DNA of 44,768 nucleotides, taken from contig CANQNY010000006.1 of NCBI GenBank assembly GCA_947625335.1, forward strand, positions 1 to 44,768. The letters run 5' to 3'. Source of the stretch: an uncultured Clostridia bacterium (GTDB lineage Bacteria; Bacillota; Clostridia; Oscillospirales; Ruminococcaceae). Positions 4,219-30,151 of this stretch are shown here, in pieces. The position numbers and the translations under genes were made by a program. A model generated the notes under the pieces. The model did not search any database. It saw only the letters and a list, made by a program, of their open reading frames with translations, and was not told where the DNA came from. How positions within the stretch are numbered: the stretch's first letter is position 1; every line of letters starts with the position of its first letter.

Positions 4219-5442
4219 ATGATTGAATTACAAGGAAAATACGCAAGCGCAAAGGTGTTTACCGATACCGCTGACGAAGTTTCCATATCTCAAATTCGGG
4301 AAATGTTAAATCAAGAATTTACTTCGGGCAGGAAAATACGTATAATGCCCGATGTACACGCAGGAGCAGGCTGCACCATAGGTACGACAATTACGCTTAC
4401 AGACAAGGTTGTGCCGAATATCGTAGGGGTTGACATCGGCTGCGGTATGGAAGTATGCCGCCTATTCGAAAAAGACCTCGATTTACAGAAACTCAATGCA
4501 ATTATAAACCAAAAGCAGATAGACAGCCTTGTAAATGGGGCAAGAAATACCCGCCATAAGTTTGCAAAAGGCTTGTTGGAAGATGAACTGAAAAAACTGC
4601 ATTGTGCGAATAACGTTGACCTTAACAGGGCTTTATACAGCCTTGGAACTCTGGGCGGCGGCAATCATTTTATCGAAGTTGACAAAGACGACAACGGCAA
4701 TTTGTATCTTGTGGTACACTCGGGGTCAAGACATTTAGGCGTTGAGGTTGCAAAGTTTTATCAGGAGGCAGGTTACAAACAGCTTCTGCGCAAAGATGAA
4801 CTTGAAATAAAAAGCCTTATTTCTCGGTTAAAAGCGGCAGGCAGAGCGCGGGAGATAGAGGAAGAAATACGCAAACACAAGGCTCAATTTTCAAACAATA
4901 TACCGAAAGAGTATGCTTATGTTTCGGGAGAATTGTTTAAACAATACCTTGACGATATGAAAATTACGCAGGAATACGCCGCTTTAAACCGCTCCGCAAT
5001 TGTTGAGGATATTGTTGAAGAAATTGGGCTGACTTTTACAGACCGTTTCTGTACGATCCATAACTACATTGACACCGACAAGAAGATACTCAGAAAAGGG
5101 GCTGTATCTGCCGAGGCGGGAGAACGCTTGATAATACCCCTGAATATGCGTGACGGCAGTCTGATATGCGTCGGGAAAGGTAATGCAGAATGGAATTGTT
5201 CTGCTCCCCACGGTGCAGGCAGGCTGTTTTCACGCACAAAAGCAAGAGCGCAATTCTCGGTTGAGGAGTATCAGGAGCAAATGAAAGGCGTGTATACCAC
5301 TTCGGTGGGGGCTGACACGATTGACGAATGCCCCATGGCTTATAAACCCATGGAGGAAATAATTGCGAATATTGAAGACACCGTATCGATTACGGGGATA
5401 ATTAAACCCGTTTATAATTTCAAAAACGGTTCTGAAAAATAG
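4219..5442 (+). CDS. rtcB: RtcB-family RNA ligase
   Basis: A 407-residue RtcB homologue. RtcB joins a 3'-phosphate (or 2',3'-cyclic phosphate) RNA end to a 5'-OH end using GTP and Mn2+, in tRNA repair or splicing. The metal ligands are visible: DVHAGAGC near residue 46, VDIGCGM with Cys75, GGGNHF with His150 and VHSGSRH with His167. The guanylated histidine is His331 in SAPHGAGR. Length matches the ~400-residue bacterial form. GGGAGGAAAATT precedes the ATG. It sits alone between the early cassette and the terminase, a position suggesting a moron gene; repairing RNAs cut by host anticodon nucleases is an inference. Confidence 0.92.
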   Translation: MIELQGKYASAKVFTDTADEVSISQIREMLNQEFTSGRKIRIMPDVHAGAGCTIGTTITLTDKVVPNIVGVDIGCGMEVCRLFEKDLDLQKLNAIINQKQIDSLVNGARNTRHKFAKGLLEDELKKLHCANNVDLNRALYSLGTLGGGNHFIEVDKDDNGNLYLVVHSGSRHLGVEVAKFYQEAGYKQLLRKDELEIKSLISRLKAAGRAREIEEEIRKHKAQFSNNIPKEYAYVSGELFKQYLDDMKITQEYAALNRSAIVEDIVEEIGLTFTDRFCTIHNYIDTDKKILRKGAVSAEAGERLIIPLNMRDGSLICVGKGNAEWNCSAPHGAGRLFSRTKARAQFSVEEYQEQMKGVYTTSVGADTIDECPMAYKPMEEIIANIEDTVSITGIIKPVYNFKNGSEK

Positions 5443-14316: not shown

Positions 14317-14738
14317 CGGAGCAGAACCGTTCACACGAAAAGGGGAAAGCGGAAACGCTCGGAGAGCTTTTCGAGCGCGTTTTCCCGATGTACCTTAATA
14401 TGGGAATGACAACGGAGGGGTTTTGGGAACAAGACCCCTCTCTTTGTAAGGCGTACAGAAAAGCGTATGAAATGCGGCGGGAGCAGGAGTTTGAAAAAAT
14501 GAACTATCAAGCGTGGCTTCAGGGTCGCTATATTTATGACGCTTTGTGCGCCGTACACCCGTTATACCACACATTTGCGAAGAAAGGTACACAAGCAGCT
14601 CCGTATTATGACGAACCTATCAAATTCTATAAAAGCGAGGAAGAAAAACGCCAGACCGAAATTGAAGAATTGCGGCAAAAGACGTATAATTATTTCCTTG
14701 CTTTAATGAAAGGAGAGCAAGAGCAGAATGGCAAATGA
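14301..14738 (+). CDS. Tail assembly chaperone T-part (reached by -1 frameshift)
   Basis: This frame encodes the C-terminal T domain of the tail chaperone. It is helical, with GELFERVFPMYLNMGMTTEGF, EQDPSLCKAYRKAYEMRRE and a Glu/Lys-rich tail. GTG 14301 is the first possible start but no Shine-Dalgarno precedes it, so expression is better explained by the -1 shift at 14,289. The fusion product would have 100 residues from the first frame and 147 from this one. Its stop overlaps the tape-measure start by 11 nt. Confidence 0.75.
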   Translation: MGGDLTEQNRSHEKGKAETLGELFERVFPMYLNMGMTTEGFWEQDPSLCKAYRKAYEMRREQEFEKMNYQAWLQGRYIYDALCAVHPLYHTFAKKGTQAAPYYDEPIKFYKSEEEKRQTEIEELRQKTYNYFLALMKGEQEQNGK

Positions 14739-15910
14739 CTTAAACATTGACAGCCTGTCGATTGAGTTTGAAGTAACTTCCACCGATGCATTGAACGCCG
14801 TGGACAAGCTGACGGAAAAGCTCAATGCCCTCAAAGCGGCGACACAGGGCGGACTTTTGGACGCGTCCTCGGTCGTAGATGGGCTTAAGCACATAGCACA
14901 AGCGGCGAAGGATATTAACTCGGTCGACGCCTCCAAATTGTCGGATATCACGGACGCAGTACAGAAAATGAATAACATTTCCGTTACGGCGAATCTGTCG
15001 GGCGTTGCTGAACAGGTGGAAAACCTCGCTGCAGCGGCGGCGAAAATCTCGGAAATGCCCGCGATAGACCAGACGAAAGTTGACAGCATATCCGCGCTTG
15101 GTACGGCACTTTCTTCACTATCGAATATTCCGCAGTTGCCCGATCTGTCAAGCACGGCGCGATCACTTTCCCAGCTCGGCACAATGGCGGCGGGCATTTC
15201 GGGAGTGGATATGCAGGGGGTTAAAGAGAAAATAGAGGGGCTTTCAGATGCGTTAAAGCCGCTTGAAAATCTTGGAAAAACGAACCTGTCAAGCTTTATT
15301 AACTCCCTTAAGAAACTGCCCGAAATCAGCACTGCGCTTAGTAACCTTGATATGGGCACGTTCTCATCGCAAATAAGTGAACTGGCTACTGCGATACACC
15401 CACTTGCAACAGAATTCAGCACTCTTGCGCAGTCCGTTGCGTCGCTCCCTGCGCCGCTTCAAAATGCCGTTGCAAGTCTTGCGGGTTATAGCGGTGCTGC
15501 GGGTCAAGCGACAAATAAGACAAATTCGCTGCTTACCAAAATAAAGAATTTGTTTAATATCGGGGCGATAATTGCCGTATTTGGGCGTATAAAAGGAATA
15601 TTGCAAAGCTCAAACGCTTATGTTGAAAACCTTAACCTGTTTTCCGTGGCTATGGGCGATGCGGCAGACGAGGCATTGAATTTTGCGAACCGCGTCAACG
15701 AACTTATGGGAATTGATGTCTCCGAATGGATAAGAAATCAGGGAACATTTAAACAAATCGCCTCGGGTTTCGGCGTTGTGGAGGATAAGGCAGTCTTGAT
15801 GTCGCAGAACCTCACTCAACTAGGTTATGATATATCCTCGTTCTTCAACATCTCCGTAGAGGAGTCAATGCTGAAACTTCAGAGCGGAATTTCCGGTGAA
15901 CTTGAACCGT
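14728..15910 (+). CDS. Tape measure protein, exon 1
   Basis: The first 394 codons of the tail tape measure, which sets tail length and helps DNA ejection. It opens with LSIEFEVTSTDALNAVDKLT and long heptad-like helices, followed by SLLTKIKNLFNIGAIIAVFG and the conserved tail-protein region (SAFFNISVEES-like, GISGELEPL). Unspliced, the frame runs 6 codons into the intron and stops at 15,927. The true exon ends at 15,910 after GAACCGT. GGAGAGCAAGAGCAG precedes the ATG. Confidence 0.88.
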
Positions 15911-16264
15911 TAAACTTAGCGGCTTGATGTGGTGACACATCTCGAACAACGTAGTGAACCGCCAAATGGCGGGTGTGCGCTTTGCGTTTAGCTATCGTAG
16001 GAAATGACGATAAAAAGCGTGCTAACAGGGAAAAACTAAGTCTGAAAACAAACGGCTTAACTTTCAGATATGTTAATCCTGTGCTTTCTGATAAGGAAGT
16101 CTAACGACCATTCCTCGGACGTGAGATTCGTCAACAGAAGTAGGGGCGGGGTGAAATTACCCGCTGGGTGAGAACCCCTTAAATCGAAGTGCTACGGCGG
16201 TAAATATTACCGTGTGATATGGTCTACTCCCCTAATAAATATCGGGAAACCGAGGGTATAAAGG
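15911..16264 (+). ncRNA. Group I self-splicing intron
   Basis: A 354-nt group I intron without a homing-endonuclease gene. All core helices can be read: P3 TGACGA (16005-16010) with TCGTCA (16128-16133); P4 ACAGG (16025-16029) with CCTGT (16078-16082); P5 TCTGAAA (16041-16047) with TTTCAGA (16062-16068); P6 CTTTC (16084-16088) with GGAAG (16095-16099); P7 GACCAT (16106-16111) with ATGGTC (16219-16224). The 3' strand of P3 lies between the two P7 strands, the group I pseudoknot. The TCTAACGACCATTCC and GATATGGTCTA texts match the R and S elements. At the 5' site, U15910 pairs G15919 as the splice wobble (P1). P10 joins TAAG (16265-16268) to CTTA (15915-15918). G16264 is the terminal G. Confidence 0.93.
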
Positions 16265-19050
16265 TAAGAAGATTGGGCTATGCGCTTGACGTTGCTACAT
16301 TGCAACAGGTGGCGTATAATCACGGGATTTATGAATCCGTGCAGAATATGACGCAGGCGCAGAAGTCGCAGATACGCTATATCGCAATTATGGAGCAGTC
16401 CGCAAACGCTATGAACGATATGGCGCGTACAATCGAAAGCCCTGCGAACCAGATGAGGATTTTCGAGCAGAGAATAGATCAGTTTAAGAGAGCAGTCGGA
16501 AACGGGTTAATGCCTATTGTAAGTGCGGCGTTGCCTTATCTTACGGCTTTTGTCCGCATACTTACCGAAACCGTGCAGGGTATAGCGGATTCCTTGGGAT
16601 TTGAGATACCGCAGTTTAACTACGGCGATATTGTAGCGGACAGCAACAAGGGAATAGCGTCAAGTTTTGACGATGCGACGGCAGCGGCGAAGACGTTCAA
16701 GGGGACGCTTTCAAGCATTGACCAGTTGAACATAATCGGCAGTCATAAAGAAAGCGGAACGGGTGACCTTACAAACCCGTATGACCTTGACCTTGATTTG
16801 CCGTCCTATGATTTCCTTGACGGTCTGTCGGAGAGCGCGGATGACGTTTACAACAAGATGAAAAAGGTGTTCAGCGGCATAGTGGGCTTTGTGAAAGAGG
16901 CTCTGCCGTATGTGGCAGCGTTCGGCGCGGCGATTGTAGGAATAAAGCTTGGTGGGCTTATAGCACAGTTGCCTAAATTGGCTTCAACTGCATTTATGGC
17001 TGTAAAAAGTTTTTCTCCTTTTCAGCTTGCGCTTGCGGCGGCGGCATCTTCGGCTGTACTCTTGTATAGCGGCATTAAAAACCTTAAAACGGGCACCGGC
17101 AACCTCGCTAACAATATAATGAAAGTTAAGGCGGGTTTTGGTATCGCAACGGGAGCAGTTGCAGGATTTGTGGCTACGGGTCACCCCATAGCGGCAATTG
17201 CGGTTGCAATCAGCGCGGTAGTTGGCGCTTTGGCGGGTTGGGATTCCGCTCAAAGGGAAATAAACAGAACCATTTCTGACAGCATTGTTTATATGGACAA
17301 TGGTGGCATTTCAATCAGAGGGTTTACTGATGGGTTCAAGAGTTATTTTTCATCAATTACCGATCACTATGATGATATTTTAGCCAACACAAAAGCGTTT
17401 GAGAGCAATGAAACCCAGTTGAGAAACGCTGCTAAAGAAGTTTCAAATCTAACCGACAAATATATGAACTTGGACTCGGAAATGACCGAGGCAGACGCGC
17501 AGGCACTCGCAGATAATATTAAAAAAATTGGCGATAGCATCAGAGATAATTTGGGAGATGCCGTGCAGGGGATAATAACAGGTTTACAGGGTACATTTGG
17601 AACTTTTGTTACTGAAATGGGCGGTAGCGTAGATGACTTAATCGGTAAATTCAACTTGCTGGAAGAACTGGGTGGATCCTCTATTAATTATCAGCAGAAA
17701 AAAGCCGAAGAAATAGTCAAAAATATAACAGGTGGTGACCTGTCGCTTGAAGAACGGCAGGAAGCATTGCAAGAACTTAATGACACAATCAAGAATATGG
17801 GCGCAAATGTAGATTTGGGTACTGACGAATCGTACTCTTTTTATAACGCACTCAAAAAAGCAACAACCGCAAAAATCGATTTTAAAAATCACGATGAACT
17901 TTTGGACAATATCAACAGTTTCAAGGAAATGGCGGCAACTGCCAAATCAAGTATTGAGGAGGCACGTCTTGCGCTTAGGAAGTCAACCGAAACCGAAATG
18001 GAACGCCTTAAGACGGCAATGTACAAGGACACGGGGCAGACCGTTGCACAAGCGTTTGACGAAATGGTTGGAGAAGGCGCATTTGATAAAATGTTTTCAG
18101 AAACCTTAGCAGCAATTGACGAAAGTGCCAAATTTGATACCGGCAGGATAGACAATGCAATGTCCCTTTTTGTGTCGTCAATAACAGATAAACTTGACCA
18201 AGCGGTTTTGGATTCTGCGGCAACAGAACAAATTGCTTTTGGCGATGCTTTAAGCGGAACGTTCACGGCATACGGGGAAACGCTTGCTGATACTATGCAA
18301 AATGGCTCGTTTTGGGAAAAAGCAACGGCGTTTCTTTCGCCTCTTGGGAGCTTGGCAGGCAACTCGTTGGTGGGTAATGTTGACGCTGTTGCAGAAGCGG
18401 AGAAAAAACACCTCGAAACAATAAAAGAGGGGTATTCCGACATATACGATGCCTTGTCTGAAACGGGTGTTAAAGTTACTGATGAATCTAAGAAAATTGC
18501 TGCAGATACAATTCAAGGCTGGGTTGATGGCACAATAGAAAATCAAGATGACTTGTTTAAAGCACTTGACTCTTTGGGCAATAAATCAATTGACACGGTG
18601 AGAGAATCGCTTGAATCAAACTCCCCGTCGAGAAAGACAATGGAAATCGGCGGAGATTTTGACGAGGGATTTAGATTAGGTATTCTTAGAGGCGAACACG
18701 ACGTATTTTCGACAATTCGAGAGTTTGGCGAAAGGGTCGCAGTATTGTTTCAAAGTTATATGCCCGATTTTGGCGTATATGCGGAGCAAGCGTCGGCAAG
18801 TTTCTCGAAAATATATCAGCCGAAAACAAGTTACTCCTACGCCGCGCAGACTGCGCCCGCTGTACAGTCGGCAGGATATGACCCGAGAGCCGTAACGGAG
18901 GCGGCGCAGCTTTGGGGGTCGGTTGACAGACCGATAGATGTAAATGTACAGCTTAATAGCGTTGTTGAGCTTGACGGCGACCAAGTGGGTCAGGCAGTCA
19001 CAAATTATCAGAATGGGCGCGTAATTGCGTCAAACGGTATGGCAAAATAA
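16265..19050 (+). CDS. Tape measure protein, exon 2
   Basis: The remaining 928 codons plus stop. Joined to exon 1 the protein reads GELEPL-RRLGYALDVATLQ, exactly the text conserved in phage tape measures, and totals 1,322 residues, enough for a tail near 200 nm at about 0.15 nm per residue. There are apolar segments (AALPYVAAFGAAIVGIKLGG, AFMAVKSFSPF..., GAVAGFVATGHPIAAIAVAI) typical of tape measures, then long coiled regions, and SNSPSRKTMEIGGDFDEGF near the end. An ATG at 16,219 inside the intron could be mistaken for the start. The middle (about 17,300-18,650) is more AT-rich than the flanks. Confidence 0.88.
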
Positions 19051-27706: not shown

Positions 27707-30139
27707 TTAATCAATAGTGCGAATTTGCTCGACAATAGACTGTTTTCGCAGTCCGTAAAGCGGGATAAACGACGCCAGAAGTGCCGCTATAAACGCGGGA
27801 ACAAGGGCTATAAGCACTTTCGGTATTGGTGCGGCGTAGGAGATAAATTGTCCGAACATACCCGCTACCATATCGTCCTTGCCTATCATCATCTGTGTAA
27901 GAGCCATAAGCACCTCGCACAGGATAATTGACGCTATTCCCGAAATGAACACATATTGCAGGCACTCTATCACCGTCATACGGTTCATTTGCTTGTCGGT
28001 CATGCCGACGCTTATTAAAGAGGCGATTTCCCCGCGGCGGTTGAGAATTCCCGTGGAAAGAATATTCACCATATTGACTATCGCAATAAGCGCAAACAGA
28101 ATATTCAGCGCGTTAGAGCCTATGCGTATTGCCGACAGCATAGAGTTTGTTTCTCTGTAACTGCGGAAAGAATCGTTATACCATGTGAACAAATCGCCGT
28201 TTTTGTTAAGGAAGTCCTCGGCTTTGTCGTAATTTGTCGGGTCTATAAGGTCGACAAAGGTGTCCGAAAGCATATTTCCCCCGAACATAACGTGATCGTA
28301 GTCGTATTGATACTCTCCGCTGTAATATGCGTCAACGGTTGAAATAAAGTCCCACATGTCAAACCCCGGCAAAACAAGGTTTCCGTAGGAGTGCCTGAAG
28401 GAGTCGTTTGTCCCGAGTGTGTAGGTTGCCGCAATATCAAGCGTTTTTTCGGTTGTTCCGCGGTAAATATACGAATACATGCGGTCTTCGGAATCCTCCT
28501 CGTCGTCTTCGGCAACTTCGGGTTCTTCCGTGCTTTCCCCATAGCTGTCGCCAAAGTAAAGCGAGGGATCGCCCTTCTGAAACTTATCAACGTATTCGGG
28601 GAGAATGTTCTCTTTATCCAGCGTTGCAAGTCTGTCCTGACGCGTGTAGGTGATTTTCCCGTTTTCAGCATTCAGATAATAGCAGTCCTTCATAATATAC
28701 GAGCGGTTTTCGGAAAGCTCCTCGTAGGATACGGGAGGATTGTTGTTAAACAGCTTCATATACAGCGGCTTGTTTAAGAAAAGTATAATGTATCTTGAAG
28801 GGTCTTCGCCGGGATTTTGGGATATTATGTTATAGTCGGTATTCGCTATATACGCCAGCGGCTCTTTAAACATCCCCGACTCCTCAAACCTCTTGCAAAC
28901 GTCCTCGTAAGCGGTATTTCCCGAGGTTGGCTTATAATAATAAGACACGCCGAAATTGAATTCTGCAAGCGGAGCCTGCTCTTCTAACGGACCTGTCAGA
29001 CTGTTTTCAAATTTGTCGACAATTATGGTAACCGACGCGAAAAGCGTTATCGACACCGTAAGCGACAGCACGGAGACTATAAACCGCTTTGGCTGACGGC
29101 GGTTGTTTCGTGCGGCAAGAGTACCCGTCCAGCCGAAAATTTTCCCGAAAAGCGATCTTTTCTTCACCTTTTTGACAGCGTTTGACCGCGCGCTCATTGC
29201 CTGTATCGGCGTCTTCTTTATAACTCTCATTCCCACGCCGTATGCCGAAAGCAATACCCACAAAATTCCCGTTGCCGCCGCCAGAAACGTTAAAAGCGGG
29301 TTTACATGGAGCTTTATAAGCTCCGATGCCTGCTCGGCGGTGAAAAATACACCGATAATACATTCGTTGACGATTATCTTAAACACCGCGAACGCAATGC
29401 CTATACCTGCGAGAATTCCGAGCGGAAGTCCCGCAACCGACAGAATAAGCCCCTCGAACGTGATAATCCTCACTATCTGCATAGGCGTAGCACCCACGGA
29501 CTGAAGCACTCCGAACTGCCGTTCGCGCTCCTTTGACGAGATTTCAAACGCCGTGTCGATAAGCAGTCTCAGCACCAGAATGATGAAGATAATTACAACA
29601 TACAGCAGAATTATCCACAATACCCACTGAACTCTGTCGTTGTCGTCAACCGGACGGTAATTCCCGAGCGAAGACGAACCGATATAGCCTACATCGTCGT
29701 CGGAAATTGATGCCCCATGCATTTTTACCTGCAGACCGACCTCGCCAAGAAGGTCCCGTATAGTTTCTACTGCGGTTTTGCCCGAATTTATCGGAAACGT
29801 TTTTTCAAAGAAGCAATACACCGATCCGCTTATGCGCTTTTCAAAGCTTACGATTACTTCATTTTCCTCTTTTTCGGCAGTCCCGTATTCCTTGAATTTT
29901 TCGATAAATGCGTCAATCTTTTCAGACTTCTGCGTGTCGCCCTCGACAATATAATATGAGAACGTGTAGTGATACGGCGTTTTTTTGTAGGTTACCTCAT
30001 ACATACAACCCATATATGTGGTAAACGCGGTGAATATGACCGTAAGTATCGCTATAGCAAGCGCGATGCTGCATACTGTAAGAGCCGAGTGGCGTTTTTG
30101 CGTTTTAATGTAGCGAAGAGCGAGTTTTCCCGTGAACAT
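27707..30139 (-). CDS. ABC transporter permease with two FtsX domains
   Basis: An 810-residue permease. It starts with a cytoplasmic/membrane helix (SALTVCSIALAIAILTVIFT), an outside domain to about residue 165, then an FtsX-type set of three helices with the conserved KERERQFGVLQSVGATPMQI loop. A second membrane helix (FIVSVLSLTVSITLFASVTI) precedes a large external domain (about 385-680), followed by the C-terminal FtsX helices with NRRGEIASLISVGMTDKQMN. This two-FtsX layout is typical of exporters for peptides, lantibiotics or cell-wall-active compounds. The ATG follows GGGGGTGG; it is downstream of the ATPase gene in one operon. Confidence 0.85.
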   Translation of the reverse strand: MFTGKLALRYIKTQKRHSALTVCSIALAIAILTVIFTAFTTYMGCMYEVTYKKTPYHYTFSYYIVEGDTQKSEKIDAFIEKFKEYGTAEKEENEVIVSFEKRISGSVYCFFEKTFPINSGKTAVETIRDLLGEVGLQVKMHGASISDDDVGYIGSSSLGNYRPVDDNDRVQWVLWIILLYVVIIFIILVLRLLIDTAFEISSKERERQFGVLQSVGATPMQIVRIITFEGLILSVAGLPLGILAGIGIAFAVFKIIVNECIIGVFFTAEQASELIKLHVNPLLTFLAAATGILWVLLSAYGVGMRVIKKTPIQAMSARSNAVKKVKKRSLFGKIFGWTGTLAARNNRRQPKRFIVSVLSLTVSITLFASVTIIVDKFENSLTGPLEEQAPLAEFNFGVSYYYKPTSGNTAYEDVCKRFEESGMFKEPLAYIANTDYNIISQNPGEDPSRYIILFLNKPLYMKLFNNNPPVSYEELSENRSYIMKDCYYLNAENGKITYTRQDRLATLDKENILPEYVDKFQKGDPSLYFGDSYGESTEEPEVAEDDEEDSEDRMYSYIYRGTTEKTLDIAATYTLGTNDSFRHSYGNLVLPGFDMWDFISTVDAYYSGEYQYDYDHVMFGGNMLSDTFVDLIDPTNYDKAEDFLNKNGDLFTWYNDSFRSYRETNSMLSAIRIGSNALNILFALIAIVNMVNILSTGILNRRGEIASLISVGMTDKQMNRMTVIECLQYVFISGIASIILCEVLMALTQMMIGKDDMVAGMFGQFISYAAPIPKVLIALVPAFIAALLASFIPLYGLRKQSIVEQIRTID

Positions 30140-30151
30140 CAAGCCACCCCC

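Follow-up and report, generated by a model that had tools for sequence, protein, structure and literature searches.

A probable IA-type group I intron with a likely relic of a homing endonuclease in a phage tape-measure gene

Why is the tape-measure gene of a phage in an uncultured Clostridia bacterium read as two open reading frames (ORFs), and what is the DNA between its halves? The window, meaning the whole stretch of 44,768 nt that we analyzed, is contig C6 of an assembly of 2.24 Mb. Its ORF list splits the gene into 14728-15927 (399 aa) and 16219-19050 (943 aa), the pair of false gene calls that the original prediction had expected. The first ORF overshoots the exon-intron break by a few codons and the second begins at an ATG internal to the intron. 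Taking out 354 nt joins exon 1 (14728-15910, plus strand, 1183 nt, its last base being codon position 1) to exon 2 (16265-19050, plus strand, 2786 nt) in one frame of 3969 nt that reads E-P-L/R-R-L-G at the junction (here and below the slash marks the insertion point), so the predicted repair of the frame holds. The tape-measure assignment was upheld by exon 2, which matches PHROG 1535 (tail length tape measure protein) at 5.6e-29; exon 1 alone has no PHROG match at 0.001. The neighbours of the gene, in the usual order, code for terminase, portal, major head protein, major tail protein and endolysin. Tail length is set by the tape measure, and a tape-measure gene split by an unrecognized intron leads to misleading annotation and tail predictions.

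The limits of the intron were read from phages with an empty site. The last 194 aa of exon 1 matched 15 phage records by tblastn (six with at least 80% query cover), and exon 2 matched 32. In at least six records, all faecal phages (MT835537, MT836094, MT838887, MT837864, MT835849 and MT838081) and counted among the 20 exon 2 matches listed, exactly three nucleotides, a single codon, lie between the exon 1 match, which runs to the last whole codon, and the exon 2 match, which starts from the first whole codon. This alignment with intron-less tape measures, together with the P1 wobble, P10 and the terminal G described below, confirms boundaries at exactly 15911 and 16264. Two separate genes, or a frameshift or assembly error with no intron at all, would also give the two ORFs that gene finders would list, but we regard this as wholly improbable, as G037, a different assembly, has an insert of the same kind in the same codon, and so do L027 and G757.

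The intron (15911-16264, plus strand, 354 nt, without an endonuclease ORF) is delimited by the empty sites, a covariance model, covariation in P1 and P3, and matches to its 3' end. All its elements lie on the plus strand. P1 (15907-15922) pairs exon CCGU and U15911 with the internal guide sequence (15907-15911/15918-15922), and its U15910.G15919 wobble is the mark of the 5' splice site. P10 joins CUUA (15915-15918) to UAAG (16265-16268), and the terminal intron base is G16264. A P2 hairpin with a GUGA loop (15926-15941) shows three double compensatory changes relative to G037. It is followed by the 5' strand of P3 (15950-15955, partner 16191-16196) and by two extra hairpins between P3 and P4 (15959-16022, composed of 15959-15972 and 15975-16022), which covary in alignment A6 and against G037. 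The P4-P5 domain (16025-16082) contains P4 (16025-16030/16077-16082) and the P5 stem (16042-16047/16062-16067), with P6 at 16084-16088/16095-16099. The 5' strand of P7 (16106-16111) pairs with 16219-16224 in a pseudoknot with P3. Extra helices P7.1 and P7.2 between P7 and P3 are a feature of subgroup IA, and they are present in the window intron as hairpins at 16118-16132 and 16146-16177 (region 16118-16177). The 3' strand of P3 (16191-16196) and the P8 hairpin (16198-16212) precede a conserved J8/7-P7-P9 block (16216-16264) that has the terminal G as its end and includes a 28-nt pattern (16216-16243) found in 44 viral contigs.

The predicted core, paired from P3 to P7, was borne out by covariation. 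P3 is paired at 66 of 66 positions in 11 introns, with all four Watson-Crick types occurring at its second pair; swapping strands between introns left 68% paired, and none of 100000 shuffles reached the observed value. These are the 11 of 12 introns in which both strands were found, L012 being dropped with its 5' anchor absent. P7 is GACCA/UGGUC in three of the 12 and GACUA/UAGUC in nine. P1 with the exon is paired at 36 of 36 positions in nine introns, the last pair being U.G in all nine, compared to 65% paired after swapping; L012 and L015 were unassigned in this count, and G037 was left out as its P1 is identical to that of the window. The strands of P1 and P3 were paired by hand because P3 is misplaced in part of the rows when whole introns are aligned with MAFFT; hand-picking favours pairing, and the swap control used the same strands.

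Covariance model R1 was made from seven introns without the window, G037 or the 3' block. It matches the window at 15950-16215 with 74.1 bits (E 3.4e-20), and the runner-up in the window has an E of 0.087. Over the 42 pairs of its alignment 90.1% of cells are paired compared to 66.6% in shuffles, double changes occur at 29 pairs, and for all five measures the observed value was reached in 0 of 500 shuffles. Among 23 sources, 17 have R1 matches at E ≤0.1, including L179, which contains the G020 intron that is itself in the model. The six with no match at E 0.1 are L009 and L180 (empty sites), L007, L008 and L183, together with L058, which is a miss, as this terminase stretch does have the 3' block. 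At 91 positions chosen for comparison of the window with G037, 73 are identical (one unpaired in both), nine are double compensatory changes, one is mismatched in the window and paired in G037, four are broken and four gapped; three of the four broken positions lie in P8, where the stem is replaced and the alignment slips. A plain fold of the intron, with a program blind to pseudoknots, was just slightly better than shuffles (z of -2.56, 2 of 100 being as good). Local matches of the 3' block to the 44 viral contigs stop exactly at 16264 in 29 and at most 3 nt away in 39.

An Rfam covariance search had been put forward as a check, with a missing hit counting as refutation. RF00028 scores 12.5 bits over 16025-16110, below its gathering score. 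No match exceeded that score in the window, in L022 and L027, in the EH93P1 and Romulus terminase introns, or in a stretch of T4 that covers all of the nrdB intron and some of the td intron. It exceeded the cut-off in two of 14 control genomes and the model itself therefore works. Introns of this phage family were missed by the gathering threshold in every stretch tried. Since T4 nrdB, annotated as group IA, is passed over in the same way as the window, Rfam is unfit as a refutation. According to one study, models trained on current alignments may miss phage introns, and most Bastillevirinae introns were IA-like and aligned well to RF00028 once found (PMC11878797). An RF00028 search of our own genome pointed to three other weak places, the window intron not being among them. 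The host assembly has a sub-threshold RF00028 match of 22.5 bits at G000:C3:53370-53521 (L183), which R1 does not match.

We are highly confident, from the anatomy of the locus, in reading it as an IA-type phage group I intron in a late tape-measure gene that is predicted to splice to one product, to have arrived by homing and to have since lost its endonuclease. The transcript would fold around the P3-P9 core, and a bound guanosine would attack after U15910. The freed exon would then attack after G16264, giving a joined message and one tape-measure protein of 1322 residues. This anatomy is the basis on which we deduce splicing, when it takes place, and the loss of mobility. A decayed intron, dead for splicing, would leave the gene in two pieces, and the endonuclease is indeed already lost. 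Yet the intron has kept an intact core, P1, P10 and terminal G, the nine double changes relative to G037 keep pairing, and both exons are open (394 and 927 aa, respectively), making such a dead intron very unlikely.

The intron has a longer counterpart. G037, of the same genus by tool grouping, has the same intron in the same codon, with the same P1 and P10, at a length of 1083 nt. An IMG/VR contig is identical to G037 over 7536 nt and may share its sample. What G037 has in addition is an ORF of 257 aa, placed in the P5 loop, that matches PHROG 314 (homing endonuclease) at 2.1e-16 and PHROG 5123 ('homing endonuclease with GIY-YIG motif') at 3.1e-7. By tblastn the enzyme matches the crAss001 endonuclease and I-TevI-type genes; Pfam gave one below-cut-off match only, to another family. 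No match to the enzyme was found in our own assembly at 0.001, and among 200 relatives the enzyme matched, apart from itself, G153 alone, weakly and in part.

The last 16 codons of the G037 ORF begin in the P5 loop, cross P4 and P6, and reach a stop immediately ahead of P7. Read from the alignment, the window retains these 16 codons (16054-16104, plus strand, GLTFRYVNPVLSDKEV and a stop), with 14 of 16 residues the same as the C terminus of the G037 enzyme, and little upstream of them. The label endonuclease-free stands, with one amendment. No ORF of at least 70 aa lies inside the intron, and an encoded homing endonuclease, a trait of mobile group I introns, is absent; however, loop and core retain what would be the C-terminal codons of the lost enzyme.

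The window intron is best read as a deletion derivative of an endonuclease-bearing form. The 16 codons are most likely the protein's own, because the first repeat of the G037 enzyme likewise finishes with the motif GL-x-[FW]-x-Y and a like motif ends the enzyme of G757, whose intron at the same site carries a distinct enzyme in the same loop, GIY-YIG-like by eye. The two repeats of the G037 enzyme align at a score of 66, reached in none of 5000 shuffles. The enzyme terminates in GLTFRYV, similar to the close of its own first repeat (GLHWNY) and to that of the G757 enzyme (GFVWRYYNQP), a resemblance seen by eye, as the repeat alignment ends just short of the motif. Conversely, the endonuclease-free form might be ancestral and G037 have gained its enzyme later, and compact members of the family are common, nine loci having P4 to P7 within 330 nt. 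We consider this doubtful, given that the window loop GGC TTA ACT TTC AGA TAT reads as the end of an endonuclease repeat, and that the different G757 enzyme has a like protein motif in different codons. Gain of an endonuclease by an intron already having such a loop is less likely. Under loss by deletion, which we prefer, an endonuclease would have driven homing of the intron into the conserved GE-x-EPL motif, and a later deletion inside the P5 loop would have removed the endonuclease, leaving its last 16 codons and an intact ribozyme. The window copy would then be capable of splicing and no longer of homing by itself.

To see how tape-measure genes are occupied, loci were taken from whole-genome searches together with L009, L027 and L006, with repeats removed; six matches were without a locus. 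An exon 2 start within 3 residues is found in 38 loci. The 60 upstream codons, which take in two insertion sites, are open in 33 of them and interrupted in five: the window, G037 and G757 at site B (the window site), G020 at site A, and L027 at both. L027 had been chosen for its intron and L009 as a phage match; without both, four of 36 loci are interrupted, the window included, and the 36 comprise several loci that are closely related among themselves. Site A is empty in the window, where it falls at 15831/15832 on the plus strand, after ...GGTTATGAT and 79 nt upstream of the window intron. In G020, a phage of the same genus, site A holds a 299-nt group I intron without an ORF (L123:1121-1419), one of the seven introns in R1. 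L027:4335-5103 (minus strand, IMGVR_UViG_3300000405_000230) has two group I introns without a long ORF and a 79-nt exon between them, and its exon 2 has 28% identity to that of the window.

Intron DNA is 85-88% identical between the window and G037 while their exons are 65% identical. In exon 2, G020 shares 76% of residues with the window and G037 55%, yet G020 is without the site B intron and has another at site A. Homing, or repeated loss, would give such a pattern. By reading, the G757 break falls one nt further into this leucine codon; the U at the splice site is base 1 of TTA in the window and base 2 of CTA in G757, and the position of this U may choose the splice phase. The window codon is a recurrent landing place, being occupied also in the more distant L027 and G757, with the upstream site occupied in two phages. 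On balance we slightly favour a broader view, in which D/[IL]-x-SF and GE-x-E-x-L/, adjacent sites within a conserved part of one tape-measure class, would be a standing intron landing ground, both among phages whose hosts are Clostridia-like and outside this group. There, introns would arrive with GIY-YIG enzymes, shed them through P5-loop deletions and persist as immobile splicing relics, with every stage of the homing cycle in one gene. Empty, endonuclease-bearing and endonuclease-stripped alleles at one codon make the gain and loss cycle of homing introns directly testable.

We also searched for further relatives. Against 200 relatives the whole intron DNA gave four matches: our own genome, G037, and short weak ones in G013 (58 nt) and G061 (42 nt). 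The 28-nt 3' pattern, allowing up to 3 mismatches, was found only in the window genome among 396 genomes of the family, a list that includes neither G037 nor G020. In GTDB contigs the exon-intron junction pattern marked 61 stretches, with the intron in one (L105) and the other 60 without a blastn match. Short peptide patterns confirmed no exon relatives in viral contigs.

The 44 viral contigs with the 3' block have 30 distinct downstream exons of at least 40 aa, the remaining 14 being repeats or shorter. We scanned 20 of the 30 against PHROG, leaving out 10 whose first residues resemble those of one scanned. Three are tape measures (L014, L015 and L027), three DNA polymerases and four terminases; one is a major head protein and another weakly so, one is Sak4-like, five belong to families of unknown function, and two have no match. 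L014 and L015 fall in another tape-measure family (PHROG 6900), which makes theirs a third tape-measure site. Introns stand before NANK(MG) in this other class in L014, L015, L031 and L041, the last two by eye over 12 nt only. L015, L031 and L041 have more than one model match each and L014 has one; the second match in L015 is split and lies downstream.

Tape-measure introns as such are already known, and the window intron adds a member. The view that few occur in tape measures was too strong: besides the three of 20 exons above, the tape-measure gene of phage ICP1 has three spliced introns, their endonuclease content varying between isolates (PMC10448857). Splicing was demonstrated there by RNA-seq and RT-PCR, and the middle intron is empty in one isolate (PMC10448857, PMC9040626). 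ICP1 is like the window gene in having tape-measure introns of varying endonuclease content but differs in its HNH-3 enzymes and in an annotated first half that ends ...LSKNQVMA, outside the GE-x-EPL motif. In ICP1, R1 scores only 15.7 bits on the stretch with the tape-measure gene and 18.9 bits next to the terminase.

Other phage introns resemble that of the window while residing in different genes. The introns of Staphylococcus (Romulus), Enterococcus (EH93P1) and Lactobacillus (Lb338-1) phages are 88-94% identical over 52-58 nt at the 3' end, and their host gene is the terminase rather than the tape measure. R1 matches the Enterococcus (L056) and Romulus (L057) terminase loci at 31.7 and 29.1 bits, respectively, but not that of Lb338-1 (L058). 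The T4 td and nrdB introns, group IA by their record notes, also lie in other genes. The td intron codes for the GIY-YIG enzyme I-TevI, and endonuclease decay in phage introns is already known since nrdB carries a deleted, defective I-TevIII. On the T4 stretch R1 gave just a weak partial match of 18.9 bits, antisense to the genes. Among the papers listed by text searches none was recognized as a description of sites A and B, which is weak evidence of absence.

As to a free-standing endonuclease for collaborative homing, none of the 30 window proteins scanned, which are part of the window ORFs, matches an endonuclease-named PHROG at 0.001. Directly upstream of the terminase, the phage encodes an RtcB-type RNA ligase at 4219-5442 (PHROG 1075, tRNA splicing ligase, 2.9e-135). 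On the minus strand at 27707-30142, among plus-strand genes, is an 811-aa protein that matches only PHROGs of unknown function (best 1.9e-32).
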